Assembly (NCBI RefSeq): GCF_000003605.2
Contig: NW_003151753.1
Span: forward strand, 648,231-712,230
Source: Saccoglossus kowalevskii
Taxonomy: Eukaryota; Hemichordata; Enteropneusta; Harrimaniidae
DNA length: 64,000 nucleotides
Direction of reading: 5' to 3'
Part shown: in pieces, positions 4,480 through 56,400 of the stretch
Layout of the letters: every line of letters begins with the position of its first letter
Position numbering within the stretch: the first letter of the stretch is position 1
Notes under the pieces: model-generated
The model's database searches: none
What the model was told of the DNA's origin: nothing
Seen by the model: the letters and a program-made list of their open reading frames with translations, nothing else
Program-made: the position numbers and the translations under genes

Positions 4480-7400
4480 TCATCGACTATCTACTTGGGC
4501 AAATTTGATGAACCACATGGCCGTCGGCAGATTTTGGCAGCCCATGTACTCTCGCCGCAGTTCCCGCGTTGTGAAAAACCTCGCAAAGTGACAAGGTGCG
4601 CCATATATGGTAGTGTTGGCAGAATTCGGAGCACCTTCCCAGAATGCCGGTGATGACATCATAGATGGGCGAGAGTTGTCCTGCAATTGAAAACAAAAAA
4701 ACGTGCATTATTATTGAACCTATGAATATGTGAGATGGACCGGCGTGGGCGCAGTCTTTTAATTCACAGACTGAACTCGTCGATGTTTGATTATATCACC
4801 TTATTGCGGGTATAGTAATTGATTTTCGAACAAAATACACAACTTTTGAATCTGACAACTCCTCTATAAATACTAACCTTAACAATTTTACCCATGCATT
4901 GCCTGGTGTGGTCTAACCCTGTCAAGTAGTTGGTGTATTCTCCACTCCACGAATATTGATTGTTTTCGCTACTAACGTATACCGCTACGTTGCCGTGTTG
5001 TTGGGAATCTGACAACTCGTCGATGATGGCGCCAGCAAAGCTCATATCAGCTATTAAGTAAACGTGACTGGTTGCACAATCCTCCAAATCTGACATCAAT
5101 TCACGCACGGAATACGTCTCCGATTCATCTGCCTGTAAAAAATAATAGGGAAAAAAAGACACGTGTTTAAAATATTGGGAAGTAAGGTATGATCATGACT
5201 GTCTGGAAGTGGGCGCTTATAGTGCCAAATATTGGCTGAGAGCAGCGACGTTTCATTAAAACACCGTTACAGCAACCTTATATTCAGGAACAGCATACAG
5301 TCAGGTACCGAGCGAACTTTGACCTTGCATTGCTTCAGGGGAATTCTCATTAAAATTCAAAATGGCGGCCTAATTGTGAACTGGTTTTAATTGCTTGTGT
5401 TAATTGCCAGACGAACCAGCGGCGGATTAGCAGCAAATTTAGAAATGTCCCGTATATAGCGGTAACAAGTATCAGTTGTTTCAGTGTTACGTGATATTCG
5501 TCCGAGTATGTCGACAACCAAACCGTCATTTTCGGTTATCATAGTAGTAAGTCGTGAATAAACATTAAATACCCCGTGTCCAAACTGAAATTTATTCTGC
5601 AATATTCTGGTCCATTATAAATCGTTAGTCGACATGAATATGTGAATATAAAATTACGAATGATTATGATATGAACGATATTTAGTGGGTAGAGTCTATT
5701 CGAATGAACTTTTCATTGTATGTGATTATGAATACAATATGTAACGGTGATTCTACTAGAATAATTATATGATATTTTCGTATGTACATAATCAAATGAA
5801 CATGGAATTTGCAAAATGGTCAGACAAATACTAATGTTCATGATTATTCATAAGCTAGATGTGTTTTTTGCATTCAATATGGTGTGGTGTAGTAAACGCG
5901 TGCTGGGCTGTAAACAATAGAGTTGTTCCGTATTTGTTTTACAGCCACTTTATTGTCGATTTCGACACTGCATAATGTATACGATGTGAAATGGGCCATT
6001 ACAGCCGGGTAATGATGTGACAAGACAGGTGCGCGCGATTTTTAGTAGGAAATAAAAGAGTACGATTATGAGAGAAGTCAATCCCAGGAAAAAAAAAAAC
6101 TTCAAGTTGTTATATATGTATGTATGGACTCACCACTCCGTTGCCGTTGGTATCCCATAACAACATGTTACCGTCACTTGTCATTGGGTTGTTTAGGTAA
6201 ATAACCAATGTGTCGACGCATCGTGGGGATTTGCAAAATCCTGTTATCAAATTGCGTATGGGTATCTTCTGTGACGCCGGGTAGAAATTATTCGATGTCA
6301 GCTCGTCTGTGTCTTCAGGCTGGTGATCTGCTCAAAATATAATGTATTTTTGAACGTTACTTGCCTGTAGTAGTTTGTTAGGGGTGTCGCCCCCGTGACA
6401 CGGTCGTGGATGGGCGTATGCCGGCAAACGTACAGGTGGTCGAGAAAAGGGGCGATACCAGCACATTCGCGCGGAGTAACTGGAACGCGGGATATCGAAA
6501 TCATTTTGCTATCTCGCTGTCTCGCTGGATGGTATTGCGCTTTCAAAAACGCCACAATTCTGTTATTGTCTACTAGTACCCAGGTACTTGAAAGCACTTG
6601 TCAAACTGTCCCGAAGCTTCCAAAACAATGAAACGTACTGCCATCTATAGAAACCTAAGTCGTATTAATTTAATTAATATTGCCATACGAAGCGGTGTTT
6701 ATTTGTCTAACATTTCACAGTTAACCAACAGTTCAAATAGCGGTCTCTTTGATCATGCGGAGACAACCGCTGCTGCAGAATGCATGGCCCTGTTTACAAA
6801 ACAATAGCCTCGTCGAACTCACTGAATCTAATTGAACAGTTTCGCCACTAACGTAGAAATTGTCTCGCACGTCGACCACAATAGATTGTATTTTGTTTCT
6901 ACCACGTTGACTTTAAAACAAGCCGACATTAAAATATACGTTTGCGATTACTAATAGGGATTTTTTTTCAACAAATAAATGAAATGTCTTTATTAAATTT
7001 CAATCCCCGAAGTATAACACAACTTACCATCCATAATACCATCAGCATAGAAAGTTGTTATCCGTTGTTTCTTGAACCCTTCATTTCTCAACATATTGTA
7101 CATAAGACGTGTGTTGCCTTCGCTCCATGGTCGCATTGTCTGACTGCTCCAACCGCCACTAATAAGTATGGCCTGGTCACATATCTCCCATATTTTGCAG
7201 TGACTACGAACCTACATAATTCAAATAGACAAAAAGGCTTCAATCTCTGTACTAATTTACTTATTTACTCCAAAGCGCCGAAATCATCACGCAGCGCGGG
7301 TCCAAATTCTGTTTAGAACATATTACATGCGTCCGACATCACATGGGACTAGTATCGGGCTTGGTGCAAACGACACGGCGCGACGATCGAGCTTTAACAC

Positions 7401-10400
7401 GATTTATTTCCTCTCCTCTAAGCATTGGTGTCAATTCCAGCGCCATATTTATTTGTTTTATGCGAACACAATGATAAATTATACCTGTTGTAGGTTTCCA
7501 CCAATGCAACGTCTTGAATTACTTGTGAGCTCGCAGTCCATCAGGTCGTTCGTTTCTAGGTCAGTTCGGTGGATTGTGGGGCATGGTGCAAACCCAGTGA
7601 CGTCATTGCTGCATTCTAACTTTTGAACCTGTAATAACAATAAATGGTATCTTAGTAACTGTAAATAACATAGACTATAGTCAAAGCGATGCCTGAGATT
7701 GGCAAATAGAAATTTACATCATCTAAATCTATAATAATTGTAAACAAATATTCACACTCAGTTGAGTACGTTAGAGATGATACATTCAGACACTGGTCCA
7801 TTTAGGAAATATTTACCTTGGTGTCGTCATTTTTTAGATTAACTAACGGCAGGTAGTTAATTTCACATCTCTTTCGAAAGTTTACTCTCTCGATACTGCG
7901 ATGGAGGGCGTTGTGACAACGGTTTTTCAGAGCCAGTTGAAGACATTCCCCATCTCCTGCGAAATGACAGAGCACATGATATTTAACCTGTAGATCGTGA
8001 CGTAGAACTTAGTACATACACGTACTCAATTCATCATATCAAAAGACGAGAGAACAATATCATCATGACGTCACTTATTGGCTATTTGCGTCAGATCTAG
8101 GTGGCAATTTTCTTAATCAAATCAGGAATATTCGAGAGGCTAATCGCATTATGTACATAAACAATGAAGTTTTATTCTATTACACTGGTACTTGCAGTCT
8201 TTGAGAAAACATTGGTTACGGGGGAATACCGACTTCATTTGCAACTGGGCATGAACAAGTGCTAGAGTGTATTTTTTTATTGACATTGCCAAATGGATTC
8301 GTGATTGATCCAATTTATTTTTTGAATCGTGTTATCTTTTTAAGTGACGTCATTGGAATGGTCGTCGGAAGATGCGTGGGAATTTTTGTTACTACAATGG
8401 TGCCGCAAATAAAGAAGGTTGATCAGCCGCATAAACTAATATTACCTGCGTCGTGACTACGCCTAATGTAATTGGAGAAGGTGTATTATTTTGGCTACGA
8501 GACTTTGAGATAATATATAGTTTTAACTTTTGTTTGCGGCGCGCTGTGTGAAAAGTTAAACGCAGTCAAAGCCGCGAATGATTGCACCAAAAATATGAAT
8601 AAGATGATCGCCGACTGGTTAATTATAGTCTGGCACATTGACATGATGATCCTCGTATATACAATGTGCTCCCTGTCACTACATCAAAAGAAACATGTAA
8701 CTTGTATTTGGGGTATGTAGATTATTATATTTACATATAAGTTACTCCAAGCCGTGACGTCATTCTGCGCTGACGAGTTTCCACCTTGTCCGACAAGCCG
8801 AACTAGTACACACACAATTCCGAGATTATTTCAAAATAATGCAAGTACTAGTGTGAATTATCTAATAAATTGGCTACAATTTCATAGGAAATACAGTGTT
8901 CGTATTGCTATGGAAACTATACGAATGACGACAAAAACTGACGTTGTAGTCCTGGCACCCAGCGCACTGAACGTCACGTGGTACACCCAGGACGATTAAA
9001 CACTCTGTCCTTTTTACATACTGCTGATAAAGCGCATAAATGGAAGCCTAATAGTTTGGAACGACAGATAAAGACTCTTTCTGTGGTATAACCTTTGTAC
9101 GAATCGGACGTGCGCATGGCTTGCCCCGTTCCCTGTCACGTACTGTGCTCCCATGTATATTGCACAATCGTGACGTACTTGGGAAGGGATTTAAATAGAA
9201 ATGAAACAGGGTGGAAAATGTGCCTTGTAAGCAACCGGGCTCAGGACTATAAAGAGGAAGTGATCGCATTATACACCCTTTATGTTGTGGAGAATTCGAT
9301 AAAATAGGCAACAGCCTTGCGTGTAGAAAACATGGTGACCGTCACTGGTAGCATTTCCGCTCTGACGCCAGAAGGGGATGTGGCGTCTTCCCGCTTCGGA
9401 TCAATTTATCACGAAACAAAACTATGGCTGAACGGTGTGCGCGTTATTTACCCTTTCTCTGTCCCCCTAAAACATTCGCGATACTAATTGATTTACGCAT
9501 TCTATCAGTGGATGCGTGTACATTGCACGCAGTTACATACCGACCATTTATAAATATTTACGCACTGACCCCCCTCTTTTTGTCGTAAAGCGGCACCGCC
9601 ACACAAGAAGCATTTCAGCTCGTTGTCACTTCATAAAAGAGATGGTCACGGTCGGCAAAGAGTCCGTCGCCTGTGCTGAGTCTCATTAATAGCGACAAAA
9701 ACAATAAAGAAACGTCTGAAAGACGGGTATCGATGGCAGAGCGTTAACAGCACTTTTTGTTGTCAAATTTATTATCATTTGATGATGGGAAAACATTGAC
9801 ACACGTGTTAATGGGAGGCATCGCGTCAGTGTTGAATGTCTGGAATGTCCGCTTAACACATCAAAATATCAGCTAAAAAGAGTAAGAGGTAGTACATTAC
9901 AGGAATACCAAAGTCATGGCGGGAAAAAAGAGTGTGTCGTTTAATTAAATGAACAATTTGGAAAGGCTAAACAATATTACACTTACACAGGTCTTGTATC
10001 TAAACGGAAATGTTGAGAACATGATACCATGGCCCTTAGCGAATTGTCAGATAGCAACACGTAGAAACATGGTATAAAACACGTGTTTTATGTGTACGGT
10101 CGTCCCAGTTAACACAGGGACGCCAAAACAAAACAGAAATGGATATAGTAATTTGTATAATTTGTTTTGAGTTTCTAGTTGTATAACCCAACACATGTTC
10201 GAAACACGTTCCGAAGGTGTACATTACCACGGGTATATTGGCCATGGACAATAGCGTACAATTCAGCTATTTTTGATTTTACAATTCTAATTGAATGGTA
10301 ACTTACCGAGATAAAATGAATCGAGACCCGAACATCTTGTCGGTGCTCGCTCCAAGTCCACGTAAAATACAACTACTAGGTGACCAAAATTTGCTCGAGG

Positions 10401-10721
10401 ATACGGATCCAATGCAAGAACAACGTCATGTTCACCACCACGACTCAATCCTTCATCGGGAAGCACACTTCTGTACTGCTCGGTGTTACCAAACGATGTG
10501 CTATAAAAATTCATCTGGGATGCAGGTATCTTCTTCAACTTCTCGCACTCACTTTCACTCGAAATAAGCATGTTTGTACAGTCTTGTTTCTGTATAAAGT
10601 CCATTGCAGCGTCACTCCATCGGACAAGTTTCATGTGATCAGCCTCGGTTGACGGCACCCAAACAGCACTGGAAGTAGCTAAAGCGATTATCACTACTGC
10701 GTATAACTGAAGAAATTCCAT
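4480..10721 (-). CDS. Secreted C13/legumain-fold-like protein lacking catalytic residues (7 exons, 510 aa)
   Basis: Coding exons on the minus strand are 10721-10307, 7956-7817, 7628-7485, 7211-7028, 6327-6134, 5132-4878 and 4680-4480. They total 1,533 nt, all with GT..AG borders and matching phases, and end in TGA. The start gives a clear signal peptide (MEFLQLYAVVIIALATSSA). Residues 1-185 are an N-terminal region I do not recognise. Residues 186-233 are Cys-rich. From about 246 to 440 the layout follows the C13 (legumain) caspase-like fold: a first beta strand QAILISGGW, a Tyr-Ala-Asp-Gly turn near 288, a strand VDTLVIYLNN near 332, then HVYLIADMSFAGAIIDEL near 382. The Asp-His-Gly and Glu-x-Cys-x-Ser-Gly catalytic motifs expected at the last two places are absent. 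Exon structure is firm; the family is inferred from motif order. The 3' splice site of the 6327 exon has an alternative AG 15 nt downstream that also stays in frame. Confidence 0.8.
4878..7211 (-). other. Pseudo-catalytic core of the C13-like protein (exons 4-6)
   Basis: Exon 4 (7211-7028) encodes residues 234-294 with the hydrophobic strand AILISGG. Exon 5 (6327-6134) encodes 296-359, including LVIYLNNPM (335-343), where an active C13 enzyme would have a Asp-His-Gly motif. It ends in DTNGNGV (353-359), which resembles an EF-hand or dockerin calcium loop. Exon 6 (5132-4878) encodes 360-444. Its LIADMSFAG (385-393) sits where the nucleophile Cys should be, and the following run through NVAVYVSSENN resembles the next strand and specificity loop. 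Family knowledge: legumain uses His in DHG and Cys in EACESG. Inference: the protein binds rather than cuts. A distant caspase-like fold of another clan is the main alternative. Confidence 0.6.
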
Positions 10722-10864
10722 GTTGATTTGTTAAAAAAAAAAAAATTAAAAAATAACGGATTGAAGAAAATAAATGTTTCTGTAATTCTGAGCACCGCGA
10801 ATACGCTTCTAGAGTGCAGCGTAAGAGAATGTCTTCCTCCTCGACTAAGACTGTCAACTCGACT

Positions 10865-11000
10865 GGAAACCGATTAGCATTGAATGAACTCGCTATTGTA
10901 GGAAGGTCTCCCAGAGGAATACTCTGTTTGTAATCGAAATTAACCCTAGCAGAAACTTCGCCTTTCTGCCGTCGATGTCTTCTACGGATGTCCTTTTATA
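10865..11000 (-). promoter_or_regulatory. Candidate promoter and 5' leader of the C13-like gene
   Basis: Read on the minus strand, 11000-10993 is TATAAAAG, a strong TATA-box match, about 280 nt upstream of the chosen ATG. A leader from about 10970 would carry one very short upstream ORF starting near 10890. A run of A/T (10731-10760) lies just before the start codon. The surrounding 10.9-11.7 kb is richer in CpG than the rest of the window. No transcript evidence is available, so the start site is inferred. Confidence 0.4.
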
Positions 11001-23564: not shown

Positions 23565-23697
23565 TATAAAGTCTATGACCACCTGCAGAAATTCAGAACC
23601 CCAGTTCACCTGGTCGTTCGCTCTGTCGTTATTTTAAAGTTCGAGCAGGAAGAATTCAATCAGACGAAACGTCAACTAATTCGCAGGTTACGGCGTT
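23565..23697 (+). promoter_or_regulatory. Candidate TATA box, start site and 5' leader of the mosaic gene
   Basis: TATAAA lies at 23565-23570. An initiator-like TTCAGA follows about 28 nt later (start near 23595), and GGTCG/GTTCG elements near 23612-23620 resemble downstream core-promoter motifs. This gives a 5' leader of about 100 nt before the ATG at 23698, with no upstream ATG that I see. It is inferred from motif spacing only. Confidence 0.45.
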
Positions 23698-23783
23698 ATG
23701 ACAGCGAAAATGTCGGCCGTGTTACGGCTGGCGATTGTAGTTCTCTTCAGTTTCAACGCCATAGTGTATGCCCAGAGTGGCGG
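23698..23783 (+). CDS. Exon 1: signal peptide
   Basis: The ATG at 23698 opens a typical secretion signal: a charged start, the hydrophobic core [16 protein letters not shown], then Tyr-Ala before Gln-Ser-Gly. A second in-frame ATG sits at codon 5. The exon ends in phase 2 at a GTAAGT donor. The last 18 bp of this exon are the first part of the 43-bp unit that is then repeated down the intron. Confidence 0.88.
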
Positions 23784-26700
23784 GTAAGTGACATAACTCA
23801 GAACACAAGTATGCCCAGAGTGGCGGGTAAGTGACATAACTCAGAACACAAGTATGCCCAGAGTGGCGGGTAAGTGACATAACTCAGAACACAAGTATGC
23901 CCAGAGTGGCGGGTAAGTGACATAACTCAGAACACAAGTATGCCCAGAGTGGCGGGTAAGTGACATAACTCAGAACACAAGTATGCCCAGAGTGGCGGGT
24001 AAGTGACATAACTCAGAACACAAGTATGCCCAGAGTGGCGGGTAAGTGACATAACTCAGAACACAAGTATGCCCAGAGTGGCGGGTAAGTGACATAACTC
24101 AGAACACAAGTATGCCCAGAGTGGCGGGTAAGTGACATAACTCAGAACACAAGTATGCCCAGAGTGGCGGGTAAGTGACATAACTCAGAACACAAGTATG
24201 CCCAGAGTGGCGGGTAAGTGACATAACTCAGAACACAAGTATGTCCAGAGTGGCGGGTAAGTGACATAACTCAGAACACAAGTATGTCCAGAGTGGCGGG
24301 TAAGTGACATAACTCAGAACACAAGTATGCCCAGAGTGGCGGGTAAGTGACATAACTCAGAACACAAGTATGCCCAGAGTGGCGGGTAAGTGACATAACT
24401 CAGAACACAAGTATGCCCAGAGTGGCGGGTAAGTGACATAACTCAGAACACAAGTATGCCCAGAGTGGCGGGTAAGTGNNNNNNNNNNNNNNNNNNNNNN
24501 NNNNNNNNNNNNNNNNNNNNNNNNNNNNNNNNNNNNNNNNNNNNNNNNNNNNNNNNNNNNNNNNNNNNNNNNNNNNNNNNNNNNNNNNNNNNNNNNNNNN
24601 NNNNNNNNNNNNNNNNNNNNNNNNNNNNNNNNNNNNNNNNNNNNNNNNNNNNNNNNNNNNNNNNNNNNNNNNNNNNNNNNNNNNNNNNNNNNNNNNNNNN
24701 NNNNNNNNNNNNNNNNNNNNNNNNNNNNNNNNNNNNNNNNNNNNNNNNNNNNNNNNNNNNNNNNNNNNNNNNNNNNNNNNNNNNNNNNNNNNNNNNNNNN
24801 NNNNNNNNNNNNNNNNNNNNNNNNNNNNNNNNNNNNNNNNNNNNNNNNNNNNNNNNNNNNNNNNNNNNNNNNNNNNNNNNNNNNNNNNNNNNNNNNNNNN
24901 NNNNNNNNNNNNNNNNNNNNNNNNNNNNNNNNNNNNNNNNNNNNNNNNNNNNNNNNNNNNNNNNNNNNNNNNNNNNNNNNNNNNNNNNNNNNNNNNNNNN
25001 NNNNNNNNNNNNNNNNNNNNNNNNNNNNNNNNNNNNNNNNNNNNNNNNNNNNNNNNNNNNNNNNNNNNNNNNNNNNNNNNNNNNNNNNNNNNNNNNNNNN
25101 NNNNNNNNNNNNNNNNNNNNNNNNNNNNNNNNNNNNNNNNNNNNNNNNNNNNNNNNNNNNNNNNNNNNNNNNNNNNNNNNNNNNNNNNNNNNNNNNNNNN
25201 NNNNNNNNNNNNNNNNNNNNNNNNNNNNNNNNAAAATCCAGCGTTGAGATCGAAGGAAATCGATGCGAATACACTGAGATGATAACAGACTGTGACAGTA
25301 TATGAGGAACGACAGAGATAAACGTGAAACTGACTTGTGTTCCGTTGGCGATGGAAATGATGCGTACGTCAAAATCATGGAATTGGACATGAACAGCCAA
25401 GAGTACTGTGTCTTCAATGTGTAAGTAACACTCGATCTGATTTGCCACCAGTTCTTACTACGTGATTTTTAAACCAATCAAGTAACACCTTGCTTGACTA
25501 TTGGGTGACGATCAATCAAATTGTTGCTTTTTTATACTCCATGACTGCAAATGACCAAAGACACGATATTTGAAGTAATTATGTACATGTATTAGTAGAC
25601 AGCGATTAGTCATAAATATATACTGCTGTTCATACATAAAATGTGACTGAACAGGTAACATATACCACGGCTGTTTTGAATTGACCAATGGGCGTTCTAG
25701 AATTCTCGCGACTGTATACCGTAATTTGGTCGAGATCAAAGTACCGACAACGTCGATTACGCAACAAATTGGGTACAAGTTAGTTAATTAATGAATAGTT
25801 TCACTTGATGTGTCACATAAGCTATACGTATAATTCTTGACAAAAGTTTTAGTCTAAAACGACGAGTGGGTATGCTAAAAAAGTGCGTTTCAACAAGTGT
25901 GTATTACGAATAGTATCAATGCGCGACATGCAAAATAAACGAACTCTACCACCCGCACATCTTTTAGAAAGTTTGAAATATTCTATGGTCTAATAACAGG
26001 TGTTCGCTAACGTCATCTCCATACAGCAGTGACAGGCGTTGAGTATATCATTTTGTAACAGCCATTTAAGTAATAATACTAAAAAAAACGCAGGCTGACT
26101 TTACACACTAATACTTCACCGCCCGCTGTACCACTCGAAGCTGTCATTTGGAATTGCAGAGACGGTTGCACGAAATTTAGCATGGGTGGGGGGGGGGGGG
26201 CGAGATTTGCTCACCATTTTTTCGCCCCGGTGCCGCCGCCACTGAATTGGGTTAGCACACAACTGAAAAAGTAACCGCATCCAAGACAGAAAGCCAACTG
26301 AAATTGAATATATCAGCAAATTCAGTTAGAAACGAGTAGTTTACTTTCAGTGAATTCCAAACTTGTTATCAAAACTGAGATGTGGCTCTGGTATTAAAAC
26401 ATATGGATATTTGTTTCATTTCTATTTGAAAAACAAATCGATGTATTGAAATCACAGAAATGTAGTCCGGAACAATCTATATTTGCTATCGATTATTCTG
26501 TTTGTTCGAGTGAAGCATCGCCTTTCATAGTGATCAACACACACGACTATCCCATGGAATGCAGCATGTGGCTACGTGGCGGAGACACGATATCGCGTTA
26601 CTCGAAAGAGGGCGCTGTATTTACTAATGCACGTATTCTAGGCTATGGCCATGATTTGTCTTCGATGTTCACTGATGTTGTCGCATTGCTTACGTACGGG

Positions 26701-29700
26701 AAGTGACATGACATTTAAAATGAAGATGTGCCAGAGGCCTTCTCGCACTCTATGTGCTAGTTGATATTTATTTCATTGTTACATATGGCTGTCAAAAACA
26801 TTTTCAAAACATAAGGCTTGCGTACGATGACTCTTCTGAGATATATAAAGTTTGACTCAAGAACGTCCTGCAATGTAGCATTCTGATTGGCCGAGAAGCC
26901 CCGAGGCGGGGGTGGGGGTCAAACATCAACGATGTAAATAATGCGCAGCGCCCGCGCCGTTCACAGTGTATTATCAATATGCGAAACCAACGTTGAGGGC
27001 GATAACTTTACTTTGCTATTGTTATTATTACATAACATTTCATGGTTTTAGAGTTTCCATTCTCAACGCTGACTATATATCCAGAGTTATGGGAAACCAG
27101 GATTGCATTTTACAGCGTATGGAATGGTGGGACTGCGTACAAATCCTTTGCAATTTGTGCAGTCGGTGGGTCACGTTGGTGTGGCTTGTGGCTGCTACAT
27201 TCATTGCTGAAGTAAACGTATACTCTGTCTGCTAACTATAATTCATTGACAACTTATAAAACCATTTGGTGTATGACAATTTTTGTATTCGTTTGATTTA
27301 CAATATGATCACCGGAGTAATAATTAACCTATCAATTGCAGAACTGTTACCAATACCGTGCCTATAGAAATTATACAGGAATCAGAAGAACTTGTCACTC
27401 GCTGCTGCAATGGATGGTCAGACAAAGACTGTAACATTCGTAAGTAGTTACTTTCCTTTACTGGATATTGGAAACCAAAAAAAAAAAAAACAATTTGCAG
27501 TACTAAAGCGCGATGTCAAAACATTGAATGTTTTTAACTTTCTCAGGAAGCTATCTGGCAGGGATGTACCCCCAAAAAGTGGTTAAATACACGCGTGTCC
27601 TGAAATTGGGTTGATCGTATGGTCAAGTAACACATTTGGCACGTTAATAATTTGTTGGACGGTACTCGGAGTCGATTACTGACTTGTGAAAGAATGCCAG
27701 TAGAAATATTTTCAAAAGCGAAGTCAATTGCTAAGAACTGTCCAGGCCATGCGCCTCGCTTGTGAACGCTATAATAGGACTGGTCTAACCATTAACACAT
27801 TGCATATATTTGTTCGCAGCTGTCTGTAATCCTCTCTGTGCAAACGGCGGTGAATGTGTCGGTCCTAATCTATGCAGCTGTCCAGAAGGTTACGCAGGAA
27901 GCGATTGTAAAACAGGTACGTAACAACAAAGTTATTGATTTGCCCATAGTCAGCTTGCGTACAAGTGATAGAAAATGCGATTATTTTATACCTATATTTA
28001 CTATATGGGGGTAGCCATCTTGAATACGACTTGAAACTAAATAAAATATATAGTTAGAAGACCGTTGCTGATTGGCTCCTGAGTTGCATGACGATCCCGG
28101 TTTTCAAAAACCCGGGAAAGTGTTCCAAATTCATCGTGTAATGAGATGTTTGTATGCAAGGAATTTTCCATTCAAAAACAATGAATGCGGTCTAATTTTT
28201 TAAGCGGTTGGCCTAATGTTACCTCGACGAATCGTTTGGCTGTTATGTATTTTCGCCGGATTTGTAGAAAACTGAAAACTCCGTTTCTCAACTTCTCTCT
28301 ATATTTAGTTTCAAGCCGTATTCAATATGGCTTCGTGACCATATAGTTAACGTCGGTAAACTATTTTCTTTAAATCACTTGTAGCCAGCTGGCTGTAAGA
28401 ATATCACCCCAAAGACTGTGACTGACCTAATAGCTAATACTAATATTGTATTTCCCCGCGTTCGTTGAACACTGTGTTTGTATGATTACTCTATTCCTGT
28501 GACCATAATTGACGTATACTAGTATATTGTTATGAGAATGTTGACTTTTATTTGTTGTTAGCAATGTGTGTAAACGGCTGTATGCATGGTTTCTGTTCAT
28601 CGCCCGGTGTGTGTACGTGCATAACAGGATACGAAGGATCTATGTGTGACATCGGTAAGTTTTCAGATAACTCATCAACATACTCTATGAATATCAGTGC
28701 ACCATGACAACAATGGCTATGCTAGATTGCTTTAACATGTTATTTTCGAATTATACGTAAATATTACCACACCGTAATGCAAATATAACTGTTTTATTAT
28801 TGTTTTCGTAGATTTGATTGTTACAATGTTACAATCTAATACTGTGAACTAAATTTGTTTTAATCTCCGTATTTTGTAGCTAAATGCGACCCTCCATGTG
28901 TGCATGGTGACTGTTCTGATCCCGGAATATGTACATGTATGGACAAATGGAGCGGCGTTGATTGCAGTGAAGGTAAAACAAAGTTACATGACGTAATCAT
29001 GTTCACATCCAAGGTTGCAGAACGGTGATTTTCATTAAAAATCACGTTTTACAGATTTATTATAAAATTTGATTAACACATTAAAGCGGCAATAGCTGTA
29101 ACCATCGATCTTTTATCTCCGATTTTTATTTTTAATAAATCATTTTCTGTGTCATTAGTGCTAACTTTGTAACACTGAAAGTATAGCCTATACGCTATAT
29201 ATCGACGTTGTTCATTAAATCACTTGCAAGTGAAAACAAGATGGCGCGGGTTTATATCCAGGTCTCTAGATGGCGCCTTCTAATGAAATCCATTTTTGTC
29301 AAGCAAACCTTAGGAATTATGGTATAATTTGATAACTTACCGGGAGCCCTGGTCACAATGTCAAATATATTGCCATTGTGAGAGCCTATGTCTCTCTCTG
29401 ATTGTATGTGCCATTTTTCACAATAGTGTGTGTCGTGCGTTCTAATTTGTTATCACCCGCTTCTCGCAATGCCGGGAATGGGAGTGTCTGTCAAGGCAAA
29501 CAATTTGAGGAATTAGTTTCCGACTTGCAGTACTTTTGTTGGAGACAATGCGATTTAAACAGCACGCCAGTGTTGTTACACCGACCACATTTATAAAACT
29601 CGGGAGGCACTTTTAGTTCATTTGCCTACTCAAGCTTATAACCAATGTTAATTGTTTATTTCTGTTGTTCAATAGAAACTTACGTATGTGGCCAGTCTGG

Positions 29701-32700
29701 CTGCCACCATGGCGAATGTATTGGGGATAATCTTTGCGACTGCCAAGCAGGCTATACCGGCGACTACTGTGAAGACAGTGAGTACAACATTTGTGTGTTT
29801 AAATATAGTGTGGCCTTATGTGTTATACAGCATGCGTTTAAATTTAACACTTGGTACCATACTAAAATCGCTCCATTGGGATTAACAAACCGACCTATAA
29901 GTATTATAAAATATGCCAATGCTTATGTGATTTCCAACATTATCTACCCACCTAAAATTTCGGAAGTCCACAGATCGAGCTCCAAAGCGAGATTCGGTGT
30001 CAAAATACCAATAGACGTTGTCAACATAGTTCTTCCCCTGTGTGGGGGCTATGGATTCATTAACTAGTCACTGAGGTGCGAGAAACTAATCGATACGAAT
30101 TGAGTCAGTTTCAATTGCATTTCCCACGAACACTTTGGGCCAGCCCAAGTCCGCCCTCGAATCGAAGCATGTATACTAGGGAAACAAAACCTGTCAACAA
30201 ATGTTTGGGTTGGGAAGCCAGTCACATTCTTGTAAACAACTCCGCATTCACTCCCAGTCCGAGGCTAGAGTGTATGACTGTATCTCATTTTATGGATCAA
30301 ACTTCTCATGTTCGATGGGAAACACCGAGATATTAAAAAATATCGGTCTTGATATAATGATTTATTTTCTTGTAGCCGTGTGTGAACCATCCTGCTCACC
30401 TGGTGGAATGTGTGTTGCACCTGGTGTATGTGAATGCGACGCATACCACGAAGGAACGCACTGTCAAGTTCGTAAGTGGCAGTATCTATTCATAGTACAA
30501 TTTCAGTTTGATTAATATTTATACATATTATTGTTTCTACCATAACAATAGCTTCTATATAATCATCATCGTTACCTTGCAAATGAGTTGAACCCTAATC
30601 TTTTTTACATTATTTCTTCTAAATTAAATACGCAGAAATTATAAGCGTGGATGGATCACCAGTTGACAAACGTAAGTGTAGTTGTATGATTATTTTTTAA
30701 CATGATTTACCAATTATAACATACAACTCAGGTAGTTCAGTACATGGAAATCGCATTGTTCTATTATCCATTCAACCTGTTTTTTTTAGTATTTATGATT
30801 GCGGAACACAAATACATTTGATGAACATATGATAATTTGCCCAGGATTATGTTTGTAGCACAGCTATCAAATGTGGCAATTATTGATTACGTCATTTAGT
30901 GAGTTATATAACATACATTGTTTTTGTAACTATTTCCAGTTGAACAGAGCCTACTGGAGAATATGGGGCTTTGTACTATGAATGGTAAACACTTTCGCTC
31001 CTTTGATGGAACCCACTATACGTTCCCTGGTGAATGTACTTACGTGATGGCGAGTGACTGTTCTGAAATAGGCTCAACCTCGTTCCAAATATTAGTAAAC
31101 ACCGTGTATGACTGCAGTGGTTCGTTGTGTAGATGTGCCGTACATATAAGGTGAGTCGCATGTGATTCACCCAGGATTCAGATTCGCTATAGCGAATACA
31201 TTGAATGAAGATTCAGCATTTTAAGTTATTCCATATGATTTTTCTTCTCTCAGACTGTCCTGTCAAAATCACGCAACTGTCTCCTCATCTTACATAATTT
31301 TCCTGTAGGTCCGAACTTCTCAATATTGCCATTTTACCAGATGACATAGTGACTATCAACGATAGACCAATCGAAATACCGCACAGTATCAATGACGTCA
31401 TAATAACGCAAAGTGGAACATATACAATATTGGAAGGCCTAAACGGTACGTTACGTTTTTGTTTTAAGCACATACAACAGTTAAATTGCAGACAAATATT
31501 GGTAACACTAACCATATTTAGATATATACCCCAATATATACCATGCAACAACTTATCAGTGATCGGTTGAATATACTGTCATTGAAGAAAGAAATCAATT
31601 AATTAGGACTAGATTTGATATCATTACTTCACATGCTATGTCTTGTAGATATTAATTGTAAGTTATTTTGAAATGTTTTGTAGTATAACCCAATAAGTTG
31701 TGTAACTTTTTTTTTCATGACAATAATACGTGTTGTTCATTTTTTGCAATTCCATGGGGAATCGTGCCGGGCCGATAATGCTTAAAGTGGCCATGTGCCT
31801 ATAATCACCAGACAGAGAATAAAACGATGTTACTGTATGTACATCAGTTGCCAGTAGTAACAGACATACTCTTCATCTTTTCTGCACCAGGTGTAAAGAT
31901 CACCTACGATGGGATGGACAGTGTTGCCATAACCGTTGATAGCAGTTACATGGGCAACATGTGCGGTCTTTGTGGCGACTACAATGGCAACAAAACGGAC
32001 GACTTCTCAATGAGGCCATATAAATATCACGAAATAGCAAAGAGTGTCGAAGAATTTGGCAACGTGATGAAAGAGACCGGCGTTGCCTGTAACCCAGTGG
32101 AGCACATCTCATACCCGTGCATTTCGGTAGCCTTCGAAGATTTGGAATATATGAGAGGGTACTGTCACCAACTTGAAAACCTCGAGGCGTTTAAAGCTTG
32201 CAACGCGTATGTCAATCCAGCGCCCTATATGGATCGATGTCTGTATGATATGTGTGACTGTAATATTGCTGGCGGAGATCAAGTGCAATGCGCCTGCAAT
32301 GCGTTCACTGAGTATTCCAGAGTGTGCGCCCTCCACGGCATAGTACTGAGCTGGAGAAGCGACAAATTCTGTGGTAGGTGAAAAGAAGTTGCATTCATTT
32401 TCGTTAATAGCTGGTTGTAATTATTCATAATTGAGTTTTGTTGTTCGTCGAAAACGTGTACTAGGTATACTTCCCGTATCTATCTATAAAAATGGCAACC
32501 AATAATCATATGGATAGATCAGGCTATCTAGCAACGCATAATAAAGTGTTTCAGATTCCTCTGATGTGTTATTCAACAACTTAATATTCATAGAACACAA
32601 TAATGGGAAATGGTCAGAATTGCTATCTAGAAACGACACGTTTCTATGGCGTCCGCATTATGCAGATATAAGCGATGTCATTCAAGTAGAAGGGCAAATA

Positions 32701-35700
32701 TGTACCTTACTTATATGTGTGGATGTTTGTCGCTCATCAATGTCAAATAAGCGCGTCGTCACTAGAGGGCGTGACTTTAAAAGATACGAGTAGTGTATTG
32801 CGGAATTCGACATTGGTGACAGCGATAGAACCAACCACTTTACTGGGTCGCTTTCGCTGCTCCGCAGCTGATATACTTATTTTTCTGAAATGTAGATATT
32901 TTATCTTTACTGTAGCGAGAAGTTGTCCTGCAGGTGAAGTTTACTCCGAATGTGGATCCGTGTGCCCGAGAACCTGTTGGAACGTAGACTACGAACCGGA
33001 ATGTGCCGATTCGTGCATCGACGGATGCCACTGCCCCAGCGGTATGTTTAATATTACAGTGACATTATACCCCACGAATGAATTAAAACTTACCTATGAA
33101 ATATAACCCCCGTGTTCTATAACCTATATCATCGGCCGTGACTGTCCCTTGCTCCGGACCCACGAAATCTTAAGTTCAAACGCTTGAGGATGAACACTGA
33201 AAAGGGCGCCACATAATAAAAGGCCAGTGTTACTTGACGGAACTCATTCAGAAATAGATGTGACTTTCTTATAATCTCAAGGTCCGCAGATGTTTGTCAC
33301 AACCCTGTCACACATGCACAGTTTGTACGTGCACGTGACATGCAGTGTGTCGTGAAATATATTTTACGATTGGCAGCTGATCACCATTAATGGAAATAAC
33401 AACCAATGACTGAATGTTTTTTTTTTTCAGGAACACTGTGGGATGGTGAAAGATGCGTCCTTCGTGAAAACTGTCCGTGTGATCGAAGAGGTCAAAAGTA
33501 CCCTGTCGGAGCAATAATCCCAGATGCCTGTAACACATGGTGAGTTACCTCGTCCTTTATTACGGCTTTTAGCATATTTTATGCACTAATGGTCTCTACC
33601 ATCCAGTACATATCCCCATTAATGAACGTTGACATGCAAAAAATGATGATTTGGACTGCGTGGTCCAGCAAAAGTTGATTGCTTTCGTTTAAAAGATGAA
33701 ATGTGAACGAAGTTTTTAAATTGTCAGTCGATGAGCAATTTGCTTTGTGATTTTTCATGAACTAAAAAGTGATGCTCCAGTGGCACTCCTATAGTATTCG
33801 TTGGATGAAGAACTAAAATACAGTCATACACGTGCGGCTATGTTATTATATTGGTAATTTAGCCTATTTAATTGTATGGCCATTCAATTATTTCAGCACC
33901 TGTAATAATGGTAGATGGGTTTGTACCACTAACGCCTGTCCAGGATACTCTGCCATCTCTGGTGATCCACACTACAAAACATTCGATGACAAACATTACA
34001 TATTTCCCGGTTCATGTCGATATGTTCTGAGTCGTAGTACGAACGAAGAATTACCTTTTACTATCTGGGTAGAGAATTCGGAGTGTGGTATGAGCTCTTT
34101 GGCTGAGTGCACCAGATCGGTTTCATTCCAAGTGTCGGTAGATGGGCCTATGTACAGGTAAATATCTCTGACATAGCACAACGCAACACTACGCAGCACA
34201 ACACAACACTACGCTACACAGCGCAACACAACACAAGGCAAGGCAATGCAATGCAACGCCAATCATAAAACACATGTAGTTATATCTTAGCTGTAGGAAT
34301 TCGGTCGTTCCGAAAAATTACATTTACAAAAATACACAACTTTTACAAATAATAATTGGTTTGTTTAGGTGAGTGTTATAGCCATGTTAATTTAACCCGT
34401 TATAACTCGGTTAATGATTATCGAAATTATTCTTTGTTGGCGTGTTTCCGTGAAATCATCACGTCACAGGCGGTCACTGTTGTAGTCAGGATGTTTGCCA
34501 AGCGTTCAACCAAGTGTTCAAGAAATGTAACTTGTGGCGTTATTGTGTGAAAACAAGCACATTGTTCAGCTGAATGCTCCCTGTAGCTGTGAACACCATC
34601 TATATAGTGTCACAAGTTCAAAGAAAAATGACCAACATTCTAAGGTGTATTTAAGTTTGAAACATTATGACCAACCGAACGACGTAGATATGTCATGTCC
34701 ATGATTTTTTGGGTACTAAAAATACTCCTGAAACATGTTGACATTTGATACCTGTTAAAAGTTATTTATTTCTTGTAGATTGAAGGCAGGGCAGCGAGTG
34801 TCTGTTGACGAAGTGGATATCCACGTTCCGTATACATCCCTAGTAGATGGCCTCACCATTCGCCAAGTCTCCTCTGTATTTATAAGAGTAGAGACTCGTA
34901 TTGGAGTTGATATATTATGGGATGGCATTTCACGCGCCTATGTTAGATTGGACCCGTCATGGCATGGGAATGTATGTATACAGTGTGTTTTATTATGAAG
35001 CAATATGATTTACCTTTTTGATAAATTGCGCCCTCTAGTGGGGAAGCGCATGCATGTCCTCAAATGTGCGTTCAAATTGACAACCCCGTTCGGTTTTGCA
35101 ATAATTCGTCATTTAGAATATAGGAAATCTCTGCAAACCGGTGTTTGTTTTATTGACGAACAGCCCCTATGAAGAGGATACATACGACCATTACGTCACA
35201 TATTCACTTCGTCGCTACCAAGCGCAACTTATTCGACTTTATATGAATATATGATCTATTGTCTTCATAACAGGTGATTGGTCTGTACGGTAACTTCAAC
35301 AATAACCCGGAAGACGACTTCCTGACTTCTTCGGGTGATATAGAGATTTCAAGTACTCGATTCGCGAACCGTTGGAAGACCGACGGAGAATGCGCCGACG
35401 TTGACGAGGCACAAACCCGTAGCAACGCCTGTCAGTATGCTATCGACTTTGAATTATATGCTCAGGCAATATGTAGTAAACTCTGGAAAGGTGCCTTCAC
35501 AAAGTGCAACACTCATCTCGATCCACGAGAGTACATTGCCCAATGTGAACACGATATTTGCCAGTGTGCACTGAGATATGAAGTCTACCCCGGTAACTGC
35601 GAATGTACCGCGTTCGCATCTTACGCGAGGGAGTGCGCCCTCAGCGGTTATCCACTGGACTGGAGAGTTGACTCGTGCAGTAAGTAAAATAAATGTATTG

Positions 35701-38700
35701 AATTCTCTAATTTAACACGAATTTATTAATAGTTGTAATTTGAATAATATAACTAAACATGTAGAGATCACGTCGATGTAATGACAACCAGATTTGACTT
35801 TACAATCAAATTGCAGTCTTATTCTGTGCCCAGACAATACCACTAATTTTTATTTTACCAGCCGTGAGCTGTAGCAGTGGGAAGATTTGGTACGAATGCG
35901 GTCCGAATTGCCGACAGACGTGCCGAGATATCAGTAATAACCGAGAGTGCGTCGAAGAATGTGTGGAAGGATGCAACTGTCCAGTTGGTACGGCATGGGA
36001 CGAAGAAATCAGCCAGTGTGTGGCTATATCTGATTGCCCATGTTATTACAAGAGTGCGTCCAGTATGACGTCATTAATGTATGCACCGGGAACAACTCGA
36101 ATGGATAAGTGCAACCACTGGTATGCGTACACTAATTATCATGAATAAAAAATACACGATGTGTATTCATGAGTATAACTCAGTTGCAAAATATTGTTTT
36201 TATAAATAATGACTCACACATATGTTATATGTTTTCTCATAATAAAATAATATTATTAATACTAATATTTTTCTATTTTAGTGTTTGCCAAAATGGCCAG
36301 TGGGATTGTGAAACAAATATATGCGATGGTGAGAGGCCATTTTTTTTCAATATATAACACAATATTATCTTACGATACAATTTCCTCTTATAAACACAAT
36401 CACACCCACCAGTGTTATCCTCAAAAACAACCATTAAGATAAGTCAACGTTTTCTAAAAACATAATCAATTGATATCCGTCGCACTGATTTCAGTTAGCT
36501 AAACTAGTGTATATTAGAAGTCTTAACCATGTAATGATTGTATATACACACTGCGATTTAGTCATTCTTATTTCCTATACATCTAAATACTCACATGCTT
36601 TTCTTGATTACAGAAACGGCGTTGTGCACCAAAGGCAAAGTATGGAGTGCTTGCATAAATTGTGAAAGGACGTGCGCAACCTTGAGTGTGCCATGCGTGC
36701 AGCTTGACTGTGTTGAGGGGTGTGTCTGCCCAGAAGGAACGGCACTCGAAGGAGATGAATGTGTAGATATTAATAAATGTCCATGCTATCACCAAGGCAA
36801 CGCTTATCCGAAAAACAAAATCATAAAAGTGGATTGCAACTATTGGTAATTATTCTATGAACATTTATTGAATACGGGGTTCAATAAGTGAATTGCTATT
36901 GCAGTATTTCCGAGTGATTTTAATATGTTAGATGTTAGAATATGTTAAAAAAGCAGGGTTCAATATGTGTCTCGCAATATGGATATGTACTTCACGATAT
37001 GTTAGATGTATCTCAAGATATGCTCTTTGTATCTCACAATATGCTGTTTTTATCTCGTGATATGTTATATGTATCTCACGTTTTTAGATGCATCTCACGA
37101 TATGTTAGATGTATCTCACGATATGTTGGATGTATCTCACGATACGCTATATGTATCTCACGATATGCTATATGTATCTCACGATATGTTGGAGGTATCT
37201 CACCATATATAAGACGAACCTCATAGTATGCTGTTTGTATATCACGATATGTTAGATGTATCTCGCGATGTGTTAGATGTATCTCACGATATGCTATATG
37301 TATCTCACAATATGTTAGATGTATTTTACGATATGCTATATGTATCTCACGATATGCTATATGTATCTCACGATATGCTATATGTATCTCGCGATATGCT
37401 ATATGTATCTCACGATATGCTATATGTATCTCACGATATGCTATATGTATCTCACGATATCTTGGATGTATCTCACCATATATTAGACGAACCTCATAAT
37501 AAGCTGTTTGTATCTCACGATATGTTAGTTGTATCTCACGATATGGTATATGTATCTCACGATATGTTAGACGTATCGCACAATATGATAGGTGTATGTC
37601 ACGATATACTCTTTATTTTATTTATTTTTTAATTATATTGTATCTTTCTACAATTAGCAAATGTCTCGGTGGAACCAAAGAGTGGAGATGTACAAAGTAC
37701 CCATGTCCAGGTAAGTAAGTTCCCTGTAGCGTTAAGCCAATGTCAACATTTGACACACTAAATTCCTCGCAAATATACTGTGTTAATCTACACGTATATT
37801 CGTTTTTCGTCAACACGTGCAATATAACGTATATTTTATTTTGGTGCACAGGAACCTGCTCTGCTTTTGGAGACCCCCATTACGAGACATATGATCACAA
37901 GCAATATGAATTCCAAGGTGCGTATATTTGACAAAACACAAATTGCAAAGTAAGACAAATAAAAGTAATGGAAGTGTAAAATAATGCGGGTAGGCCCCCT
38001 GTTTTAATGAGAGTTCTGAATTCTACATTTTGGCGGAAACTGGGTGTCGTAATTTGACGTTCCGACTAAAATGTGTGTGAATGTGGAGGCGGGGAGGGGG
38101 ATTCTATATTTTGACAGACATTGGTTAAAGTTTTATACTTTGATGACAATGTAGGGTAAAACTCAACATTTTCATAGCAAGAAACGTCAAAGTTGTACAT
38201 GGCTCTGAAATGAGGGAGCTTGTACACGGTTGTAACAAATTACTAGTGTATTAAGTACGTTTGGGAGAGTGCAGTTCGCCATTTATTGTGAAGGTCTCAA
38301 TCGGTAGATACAGTACAATACATTAACATATGTTGGATGCTAGGTGACAACCTTACATCTACGACTAGTGGTAGGGACAACCAAATATCTGACATTAACA
38401 AAAAGGCGAACATCGCTGTCATCACATTGTATTTGTAGTTGTATTATACTGCCATTCTTACCCACGGTGTGAAAACAATTTAGTGAGTGTTGTAAAAACA
38501 GGAGATATTACGAACAAGAATTACACGCATAGAACTTGATGTTGATTACACGACTATAAAAACAGAAATGTTAAACATTTTAAAGTGAATGTTTTTTTTA
38601 AAGCATATACATTTTCTAAAATAAACAGCCAGATACTCTATGGTTTGATATCATTTTATTGGATTTCAGCCGATAACACAGTGTTAAATACACAAAACGA

Positions 38701-50700: not shown

Positions 50701-53415
50701 AACTACCCTCAACATTATTAGTTGTGTACAGCACAGTTACCATGACGATTTAATTATTATCCTCACAATCTGCAGGAATTTGATGGGCCTAGTGATGGAA
50801 ACGCACAAGTCACTATTGATCTTCCTGGAATGGGACCAGGGCATATTGGTTTCGAAGCCTCAAAACTTAGAATAAGACCATTGGAATGGGTTGGAGCCAT
50901 CGGTATGAGAGTGGCTGCGTTAGGGTGCGGTAAGTGTCATTTGATTCCAGACAAAATCCCGATTGCATATCTTCTTTTCCTATAGAAAATAAACATCATA
51001 TTTTATATTTCTGTGTATATGATTTTCTTACAGCTCTTCCCCCTCTACCATCAACTACACTGAAATCAACCACACCTTGGGGTATGTTTACAATTCACTT
51101 CTACACTGTTGCAGACATGTACTAAACACCGTAGAAGCGTTTGTCTGTTTGACGTTGTTCAGATTACAAAATAGTTAGCCTCACAATAAAGAAGTGGAGG
51201 GATTTGATATGCATAAATGAAAAATGTAAAAATAAAGAATTGGGTATATTTATATGTTTATTATAAATTTGATTTACTTTTCTTATCTTCCAAACAGTAT
51301 CGACATCAACCCCAGAATGCACGGTAGGTTGATTTGTTATTTATTGTATATCTGGTAAGAACTAACATAATAGTAATGACTATAGCATCATAAGTGATAT
51401 ATGCTCAGAATTGGTGTGTGATTCTGATAGTGCCACTCTGCCTTGATGTGCATTAATTATTGTTTCTTGTGAATATACTGATAAATTACTGCGCATGATT
51501 GTAAATTACAGGAGGATGGCCAATGGACACATGGACCTTGTATGACTTGCAGTTGTGTAAATGGAAAGATAGATTGCTTCCCAGATTGTCACATCACCTG
51601 TCAGGAGGTAGAAATACTTTTCTATCGTGAAATCAATCTAACAAATGAGAGATTTAGTTATGCAAGCAACTAGAGGCGTACTAATCAACATTAACATGTT
51701 ATTCGAATACAATCTGATTTTAGATTTTCGTAGTAGTGTAGCAAACACATTGTGTTGTTTGATGCTGTTTGTTGATAACCAAATTAGATTACACATCAAA
51801 TGTGTTGGCTTTACAGCACACATCATAGTAAAATCACACTAAAATCACATCTATTATAATAATGTTTTTTGTACGTATCTAAACAATAAGTGCATATGCT
51901 TAATAGAAAATGTCATTGTTCCAACAAATGAATACGAATAGGTGTGTACTACATGTAAATTTTGTTTTAGTTCACGATGAAGAATATGCCATAGTAATCA
52001 TAAATATACAGTATCAATATTGCAAATTATACATTCGTATTACATTTTGAATGTGTTTTTTTTTATTCAGAAATGCATTTCTTCACGAATGACAATTACG
52101 TTGTTTATGGATGTTTTTTCGTAAATTGTATTGGGAATACTGAGATAATGCATTCATTCCGTGTTTAGGCTTTTAAAAAACTGCTGATCAACATTGTTTA
52201 AACATTGAAATACAAGAAAATCAACCTAATATGTGGTTTCATTAACAGGGCGAAGCATTGGTAGAACATGACGGTGCTTGTTGTGAATGTTTACCAATAA
52301 GTAAGTAACGCTGACATAATATCTTGTGATTGTCGTGTACAATATATTGAACTAATCAATGATAGTATGGGCATGACATCATCAGAAGCGAATCTAACAA
52401 ATTTGCCTTTTCGTTTCAGGTAGTACAACCTACACAACTCCAGTTACTACAACAAGTAAGATATTTTGGTTCATTTTTAAGGCTTTCTTAATGTTCGTAT
52501 TTAAATATATATATGTATTGGTCTGTTGTTGAGTATATTGTTACGGCATCGTAGTCTCATAACAAAAGAGCCGGTACTAAAAACCTATTTACCACTTTCC
52601 GTCTGCTGCGAGATCCCGCGTCACACAAAGGTCTCTGCGTCGTGGTGACGACAAAACATTGCGCGGAATTCGACAAATGTAATTTTTGGGGGTAATTTCC
52701 ACGCTTAATAATGTGCTATACACAATTAATGGGGGTAAATTGTGATGAAGCAAGGCTATCTCAACTGCATATTCGCTTCTGAAAGACCGGCATCTTGACA
52801 GTGAACTATATAACATATAAAATGAAGTTTCAAAACAAATCCTTCGATATTTTCGGCACTTGTTTGTCCTCGGCTTTCATGTATTACGCTGGATCTCGTA
52901 GTGGAGCCCACATTTTTGGGACAATTCAGTTTGTATCGAGTTAATTATATCTGCTCTTTTCAGTGTGTATTCCACCATTTGAAGTCGGTGAAGCAAGATG
53001 CTGCAATTTCATGGCGGAATGTGCAATGGATGCTCATTTCTCTGGACATACTGCATGTGCGTGTCCAGGACTTAGTGTTTTCAATGGAACCCATTGTATT
53101 TCACCAACAGAATGCTTGTGCCTGCATATGGGAAGCTACTATTTGGTAGGTATCTTTGTGTATGTAAAATGAACTTGGATAATGATAATGTCATTGGCTG
53201 TCAGGCTGTAATAACCTGAATGGTCGTACTTATTCTGTGTCAACTTGTAGCAGTTTTTTCTTATGTTTTAATTACTTTTACTGCAGCCTACAGCGACATG
53301 GACATCACCAGCAGATCCATGTGAGGATTGTGTATGTTTCAATAACGAACCCATATGTGAGAAACGACCATGTAGTCACGTTCCTGATTGCCCGGAGGTA
53401 GGTGAAACTGGTATA

Positions 53416-53478
<63 letters not shown>

Positions 53479-56400
53479 TGCTGCAGCTGGGCTGTGAGCT
53501 TTGCTTGTCAAGAAGTGGTAGGACAGAAGAGCGATATACTAAGCTCCAATTATTCCAGTTGTTGATGCATACGATCTAAAAAATACGCCCTTCCAGTCCA
53601 GTTCAGGGGATCTAGTACAGCTATGGATACGCGTTTATAATAATGTACTTGGTTATGATTTATAAAACACGGAATAGATATTATTGTATGGCCTTATAGC
53701 TGAACAAGGATTGTAGGAAGCGCACTTATTGACTACCTAAGGAGGTTTTTCAATGCGTTGTTTTTGGTTTTCTTTTGTAGGAAGAAAGGTACATACCGTT
53801 TGGTGAATGTTGTGCAGTGTGTCCAGGTACGAATATATTTCCATTAATATTAACACAGATTAAATATATTTACTAGGTGGCATTATTAAACTAAATTGAA
53901 TAGCATAATGCTCATTTCAGCGATTTCTACAAAACTAAATATGTGTTTTAGTTGACAAATATTCTCTATTTATTCATAGAAGTACCTACCACACCGTCTC
54001 AATCCACGATGCCAACAACCCTTCCAGGAAGTAAGTCTGCATATTCAATTCATAAATAGTTATAGATACACCGAGATGTTTATTAGCTTATTAATATACT
54101 GTGGTTTTGTTTCAGTTTGTAATCAAGCGTTGGGGATGGCCTCTCGCGGAATACTAGACACTCAGATTTCCGCCTCATCATATGAAGAAGGTAGTGAACC
54201 AGCAAATGGCAGGCTGTTCAACCAACAGTCATGGTCACCTAAGGAGAGTCAAGCTGGGCAGTGGTTGCAAATTGATTTTGAATCACCAATGAAACTGACG
54301 AAAGTTGTAACCCAAGGTAGCGGCAACGACAGAAGTCAGGTTGTAGATAAGTACGAAATGATGTACAGTATCGGTGGCGATGTCTGGGAAACTGTAAAGC
54401 AAATACCGCAACCAGTGTTTGGCGAAGAGTTACCTCCTATCGATGAGTGGAGTAATAAGGTGAATACACCTTTCGCGACCAATAGCGATAATGTAACGCA
54501 AATAACGCCAAAATGACGTAGATGACATATGCAATGTTGTTCAAACAGACAACTCTGTTTGGTTTTGTCGTCGGCCATCTTTTAGAATATAGCTAATCTC
54601 TATTAACGGATGACCATATCTCTATACAATTTCGACGCACTCAACAGCGTCCTTTTATTTTTATTAGACATATAAACTTATTATATAGGTATATTTTGAA
54701 TCTGGCGTAGTCCGCATACCCTGACAAGAATACAGTATAACATTGTGTACTATAGTCATGTGATGCCGTTGCCATGTGATTTTAGCAATGTCGTTTTATT
54801 GTTATTTTCAAAACTAATCATGCAACAAGCTATGGTACATAGCTGGTGAAATCTGTATGAACATAACATCGCATATAAATAGTGAAAATGCAAAGTATTA
54901 CATTATTGACAATTGGTTACGCTATTGCCAAATAATTTGTATATGCATTATCAATCAACATTGAGTCGAATATCAATGCTATTGGGATTTTCTGATTATT
55001 GTCCATTTCAATTTAAATAATTGTATGCATATTTTCTAAACAACGCCCCGTATATACACAATATTTATAAATGTAATGTAATATATAAACACAGGAGTTT
55101 GATGGCAACTTCGATGGTGATATACCCGTGGAGCAGGATATACCAGATTACGTACCAAGTATGGTGTCAGTCAGAATTGTGCCTGTCATATGGAAAACTA
55201 AGATTGCGCTAAGGGTCGAGTTCTTTGGATGCCCTTACGAAGGTGAGCGTCTATGAACACCGATTCAAATGTGTATTTTCACTTATGCAACTGCTGTGGT
55301 AGGTTCATGTAGAAATATTAATCCAAATATTTATATATCAAGAAAATATTATAAATATAATTAAATTAAGTTGCCATTATTTTTTATAGCCCTAGGTACT
55401 CCATCGGTAGCTACAACTACGTCAGGAACAACCTTGCCAATTTGTAAGTTGATAACATTAATTATTTTCACATATAACGTAATGGTTCCGTAGGAATATG
55501 TGCCTTTCCATTATCAATAAATCTCGCCGATATAGTAAACTAAAACCTTAAAACAATATAAGTGTAGATATTAACATGTCAAGACATTGTCAGTTGCGTG
55601 GGACGGCAATGCTTGACTAGACGAGTGTCACAGAGGTACACACAATTACATATTCGCAAATCACGAATCTGGTTCGAGAGTATACATTTCTTCTATATAT
55701 TTGATATGGTCACGTGTGAAATGTTTTCTATAAATTTATTGACGTTTCCGTTTTGGCACGTTATGGTGAGGCGGATGAGTCAAATATACGAAATGGGTAG
55801 AATATTACACCTGAAAAGAATATACACAAATACGAGTTCGTTAGGAGAAATGATGTGCAGCATTTTATGTAAGATAGTAATTGTGTGAACAAAACAAATC
55901 AAAACGTGATATGGGAATTATTTTAATCTTCGTGATAGGTTCTGGTGGCAAGGAATTCGTTGAGTGTCCATGCCATGCAACCTGTACTGACTTAGCGGAC
56001 AGTTCTTTCACATGTGATGGTAGCTGTGAAGTGGCTACTGGTTGTGATTGCCCAGTAGATATGGTTGAACACAATGGTGAATGCATCTCTCCATCCGAGT
56101 GTCCATGTTATTTTGAATACAATGATGTTAACGGCGAAAGCGTTTCTATTTGGATGGAAGTAAGTAACGTCGTTTTGTTACAAGATGCATACAAAATACA
56201 ACTGTTTTACTCATTTTTATGATTAGAATAGTTTTGTAAATAAATTAGTGTAATGTCTATTTATTCTTCTACTGGAATGATTTTGAGTATTTGTTTGATT
56301 ATCATTGATATGTGTTGTAGTAAATACAACAACAGATTTGTATATATTTCATTTTATGAAAAAACGTCTCTACAGCTTCACCAAAGCATACACAGTGGTG

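Follow-up and report, generated by a model that had tools for sequence, protein, structure and literature searches.

In intron gain by tandem genomic duplication, the duplicated piece lies inside an exon and gives rise to an additional intron. In the minisatellite of the human interferon-induced gene IFI6 (6-16), the repeat unit is 12 bp long and adds four codons in frame. The IFI6 minisatellite is reported to give several splice donors per transcript (Turri, Cuin and Porter, 1995), and the locus presented here is alike in this respect. Competition between donors for one intron, with productive or frame-shifted mRNA as the outcome, is described for intron 4 of DOK7 (PMC5585400); the two DOK7 donors are of unequal strength, whereas the present array holds at least 17 identical ones. 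Tandem duplication as a maker of splice signals is likewise a theme of the intron-gain literature (e.g. PMC4974935). A literature search on identical or competing donors gave, apart from DOK7, nothing on point.

The locus was analysed in a window of 64 kb (the whole stretch of 64,000 nucleotides from Saccoglossus kowalevskii, assembly GCF_000003605.2, contig NW_003151753.1, positions 648,231 to 712,230 of the forward strand), and all coordinates given below are positions in this window. We provisionally classify the array as a minisatellite supplying multiple splice donors, with IFI6 as the precedent and with the twist that every extra donor would be unproductive. It is unlike IFI6 in its 43-bp unit, in the frame shift and stop that the unit brings, and in its position at a putative signal-peptide exon. 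It is also unlike tandem-duplication intron gain, for here the duplicated piece spans an existing donor and merely multiplies it. The array presents a repeat expansion across an exon end with the first donor of the gene left intact: a neat testable case, for which no new principle is claimed.

Structure of the tandem array

A period-43 array was identified with TRF at 23766-24478 (99% matches, score 1412), the top score among the 16 rows returned for the window. The preliminary description, made from the sequence alone, had reported a 43-bp unit repeated about 17 times, containing the last 18 bp of the signal-peptide exon 1, the donor GTAAGT and further intron, and continuing into an assembly gap. 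This was borne out: TRF counted 16.6 copies, and 17 donors (GGCGGGTAAGT; border CGG|GTAAGT, + strand) were found, spaced exactly 43 bp apart. The span first given (23766-25232) was too long, because the sequenced part of the array ends at 24478 and the remainder is a run of 754 N. With head-to-tail copies well above chance (43 bp, 16.6 copies, 99%), the array is a minisatellite; as in IFI6, its first unit overlaps a probable exon end (18 bp of exon 1) and a donor is present in every unit.

After a unit-by-unit split, 711 of the 713 bases were consensus bases and 15 of the 17 units were identical to the consensus, the 17th being a partial unit of 25 bp cut by the gap. Units 12 and 13 carry an identical C to T change at unit position 6. 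The earlier proposal of recent expansion or homogenisation is supported by this pattern (two deviations across 713 bp, identical and in adjacent copies), and two neighbouring copies with a shared variant fit spread by unequal exchange or slippage. The gap (24479-25232) is the sole N run of the window and directly abuts the array; any remaining array would lie in it, as would the greater part of the 3' end of intron 1.

No 13-mer of the 43-bp unit occurred in the window outside the array. Across the genome assembly (572,110,611 bases in 4830 contigs), an exact 25-mer of the unit gave 16 matches, all within the array, with zero matches on the other strand and zero for the reversed control. Sixteen is the maximum count possible in the array, because the pattern extends beyond the cut-off 17th copy. 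In the single assembly searched, no second contig with the unit 25-mer or with the probable exon 2 was found. A coding function of the array was rejected: its three frames contain 15, 17 and 17 stops, and it therefore cannot be coding sequence.

Reading frame and fate of later donors

A TATAAA motif (23565-23570, + strand), the putative core promoter, lies 30 bases upstream of the A (23595) in a TTCAGA, and on this basis the start site was provisionally placed near 23595. The first exon would then be about 190 nt long, with the array starting some 170 nt from the cap. The probable coding part of exon 1 (23698-23783, + strand) runs from the ATG at 23698 to the GG ending at 23783 and comprises 28 signal-peptide-like codons plus two bases left over. 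Its identity as exon 1 is suggested by the frame, by the signal-peptide-like sequence and by the phase shared with the probable exon 2.

Donor 1 (GTAAGT, 23784-23789, + strand) is the sole donor that keeps this frame. Because exon 1 leaves GG and the DNA continues GGG TAA, the use of any later donor adds the in-frame TAA at 23785-23787 (+ strand) to the mRNA, as had been pointed out in the preliminary description. With donor 2, this TAA would stand 39 nt ahead of the junction; with donors 3 to 17 the distance would be 82 to 684 nt, and more exons lie downstream, which places the premature stop upstream of exon junctions. Messages with a stop well upstream of exon junctions are NMD targets by the usual rule, and later-donor messages would be liable to NMD accordingly to that same rule.

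The array is a natural experiment on the choice of the spliceosome among many identical 5' splice sites. Since every donor would leave a distinct 43-nt signature, and since productive and unproductive messages can be separated, position effects (cap-proximal or intron-proximal) would be readable from ordinary RNA-seq.

Origin of the array

The array is probably a recent minisatellite that started at the border between exon 1 and intron 1 and is largely tolerated, with donor 1 mostly used. The sequence of events may have been as follows: a 43-bp segment that chanced to bridge the first coding exon and the intron behind it, in a gene for a secreted VWD-domain protein, was duplicated in tandem and recently expanded to at least 17 copies, while copy 1 would still provide the exon's own donor. 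As the duplicated segment starts in the last bases of the exon and reaches into the intron, the later copies would become intron whenever donor 1 is used. Donor 1, aided by its closeness to the cap, may serve most transcripts, and for this reason the array would be largely tolerated and close to neutral. Leakage to the later donors would lengthen the message in 43-nt steps and introduce an immediate stop, yielding mRNAs liable to NMD.

DOK7 offers a counterpoint, because there the intron-proximal of two competing donors can be preferred (PMC5585400). At this array an intron-proximal preference would mean unproductive mRNA, and equal use of all 17 donors would leave 1/17 of the messages productive; either outcome would count against a tolerated minisatellite.

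The surrounding gene

Past the gap comes AAAATCCAG, and the sequence behind it is, in its first frame, in phase with exon 1. The probable exon 2 (25242-25420, + strand) begins after tccag with a start that fits this phase and is single copy in the assembly; the pyrimidine tract of its acceptor would sit in the gap. Ten further putative exons (27342-32373, + strand), with borders set by eye, have consistent phases and GT/AG borders and cover exon 3, EGF-like repeats and the first VWD and C8 domains. When exons 10-12 were joined, Pfam matches to VWD (4.7e-33) and C8 (1.2e-17) were obtained, together with PDB matches to IgG Fc binding protein, von Willebrand factor and mucins; the EGF-like repeats precede this piece.

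Further along the + strand, nine of the 12 single frames analysed were above the Pfam cut-off: VWD at 33817, 38793 and 40368, C8 at 35271, TIL at 35798 and 41689, F5/8C at 47373 and 53980, and LDLa at 59050. The frames at 43344, 55881 and 56781 (+ strand) gave no Pfam match. From this domain content, the gene product would be a large secreted animal protein of the VWD type. Exons 2-3 gave no Pfam match to an EMI domain, either as separate pieces or with the halves of exon 2 joined by X. A match to a Cas9 domain in the same region (E 0.019, below the curated cut-off) was taken as chance.

Other repeats and frames were recorded in the window. Another minisatellite lies within this gene (36963-37607; 21-bp unit, 30.9 copies, 78% matches) and has a 178-codon open frame on the minus strand. 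A 31-copy AT repeat (53399-53479) starts about 20 bases past a probable donor (GGAG|GTAGGT) and is the second repeat near a likely exon end of the gene. On the minus strand at 4487-10995, several protein-like open frames were seen, with a signal-peptide-like start in 10287-10730; two of these frames were compared with Pfam and gave no match.

Frame break in exon 2

The frame of exon 2 shifts by one base near 25304, at a TGA (25303-25305) about 70 bases from the gap. The break is most simply a sequence error, and a real frameshift is the alternative. If the shift were real, the allele would be broken, and the idea discussed below that copy number acts as a brake on expression would be moot. No full protein would then be made from the allele or gene, and the array could have expanded without cost. 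We regard such a loss as unlikely: exon 2 does open in one frame and close in another, and the assembly offers no second, intact copy, but the break lies close enough to the gap for sequence errors to be likely, the nine domain-bearing frames listed above are above the Pfam cut-off, and exons 3-12 keep phase.

The copy number of exon 2 was assessed by comparing 25233-25900 with the genome. The sole full-length match was the query itself; neither a second allele nor a close paralogue of exon 2 is thus seen in the assembly. Within this query, bases 424-539 (25656-25771, in intron 2) matched eight other places in the genome with 72-92% identity, and this stretch is probably a dispersed repeat.

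Donor strength and local RNA folding

Donors were scored against the 5' end of U1. Each array donor scored 8.5 of 9. On the + strand of the window, 20 of the 4212 GT sites scored at least 8.5, and 17 of these 20 fall in the 713 bp of the array; two of the three remaining sites scored 9, as did one site on the - strand. Of 12 exon ends compared within the gene, donor 1 gave the most stable predicted U1 duplex (-10.9 kcal/mol), and exon 10 came second (-10.2 kcal/mol). Donors 2-17 have the same nine bases as donor 1 and are of equal predicted strength, in agreement with the original view that the splicing machinery meets many equal 5' splice sites in a row.

For the prediction of RNA accessibility, copies 4-6 were used as baseline with two settings (window 80/span 40 and window 120/span 80), and 200 shuffled exons served as controls. 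In donor 1, the six bases on the intron side were 4.4 and 1.9 times as open as in copies 4-6, values reached by 10 and 25 of the 200 shuffles, respectively. Measured over nine bases, donor 1 was less open than the baseline (0.64 and 0.30), and 184 and 185 of the 200 shuffles were at or above these values. The predicted accessibility signs for donor 1 are thus contradictory, the six-base measure favouring it and the nine-base measure disfavouring it, and as a discriminator of donor 1 RNA structure gives no consistent answer. Three fragments folded in isolation (two units, plus 96 nt surrounding donor 1) showed no gain in stability over shuffled sequences (z 0.21, 1.08 and 0.64). In all folding settings reported, copies 12 and 13 (24239-24324) have the most accessible donors of the array, and the C to T change of these copies weakens a small predicted hairpin.

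Donor-bearing arrays in the genome

The genome was searched for three GGTAAGT motifs at a spacing of 16-46 bases, with the reversed pattern as control. The pattern gave 3511 matches (1560 + 1951 by strand) and the control 6452 (2925 + 3527); these figures refer to matches rather than loci, many of them sharing an array, and the array at 23766-24478 is among those counted. GGTAAGT minisatellites are plentiful in this genome and are not enriched over the reversed control. As such arrays are rarer than the control, a row of donors alone is no pointer to selection.

These counts bear on the suggestion, made in the preliminary description, that copy number tunes the amount of productive mRNA. With such a brake, later donors would compete with donor 1, the stop-bearing products would be degraded and copy number would set the output. 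The brake is conceivable as a mechanism: the 17 donors are equal and strong, every donor except the first would be unproductive, and a homogeneous array fits a fast-changing copy number. Nothing in support of tuning was found, however; donor-bearing arrays fell short of the reversed control (3511 against 6452 matches), and if all 17 donors competed on equal terms, the gene would be all but silenced. We consider the brake quite improbable. The same low probability is given to its more specific form, a copy-number-variable splicing rheostat, in which each 43-bp unit would add one more equal unproductive donor and the productive share of the message for the secreted VWD protein would fall in small steps with allele length. 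If this were true, the output of individuals would differ through repeat length alone.

The concentration of 17 of the 20 best + strand U1 matches in the 713-bp array, at the exon 1 end and beyond, could also be read as a promoter-proximal cluster of U1 sites, which would aid transcription or shield the nascent transcript from early polyadenylation. GGTAAGT arrays are common genome-wide and lack enrichment over the control, and we think a role of this kind very unlikely.

For comparison, eight other arrays were inspected (one for each of the first eight contigs, among about a hundred matches listed). Their TRF matches ranged from 84 to 96%, as against 99% in the 23766-24478 array. In the five arrays with a visible start, the open frame leading to the first donor was 12, 15, 24, 40 and 43 codons long; none of the five has a long coding-like lead, and an exon end is possible at the arrays with 40 and 43 codons. 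Among the arrays inspected, the 23766-24478 array would thus be distinctive in the convincing coding exon at its start and in its homogeneity. An N run was found at or within one base of the start of three of the eight arrays (L010, L025 and L026), and in one of the eight an N run lies about 420 bases downstream; a gap at an array is therefore not unusual in this assembly.

Copy number and the assembly gap

An inflation of the copy number by the assembly, to which the termination of the array in a gap might point, is extremely improbable: the variant common to adjacent copies 12 and 13 speaks against a plain assembly loop, and with three of the eight other arrays also adjoining a gap, under-assembly of long arrays fits better than inflation. 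Positions beyond 24478 are gap, and 17 copies are thus a lower bound. Should the stated gap length of 754 N be correct, there is room for about 10 to 17 extra units, according to the length allotted to the intron end.
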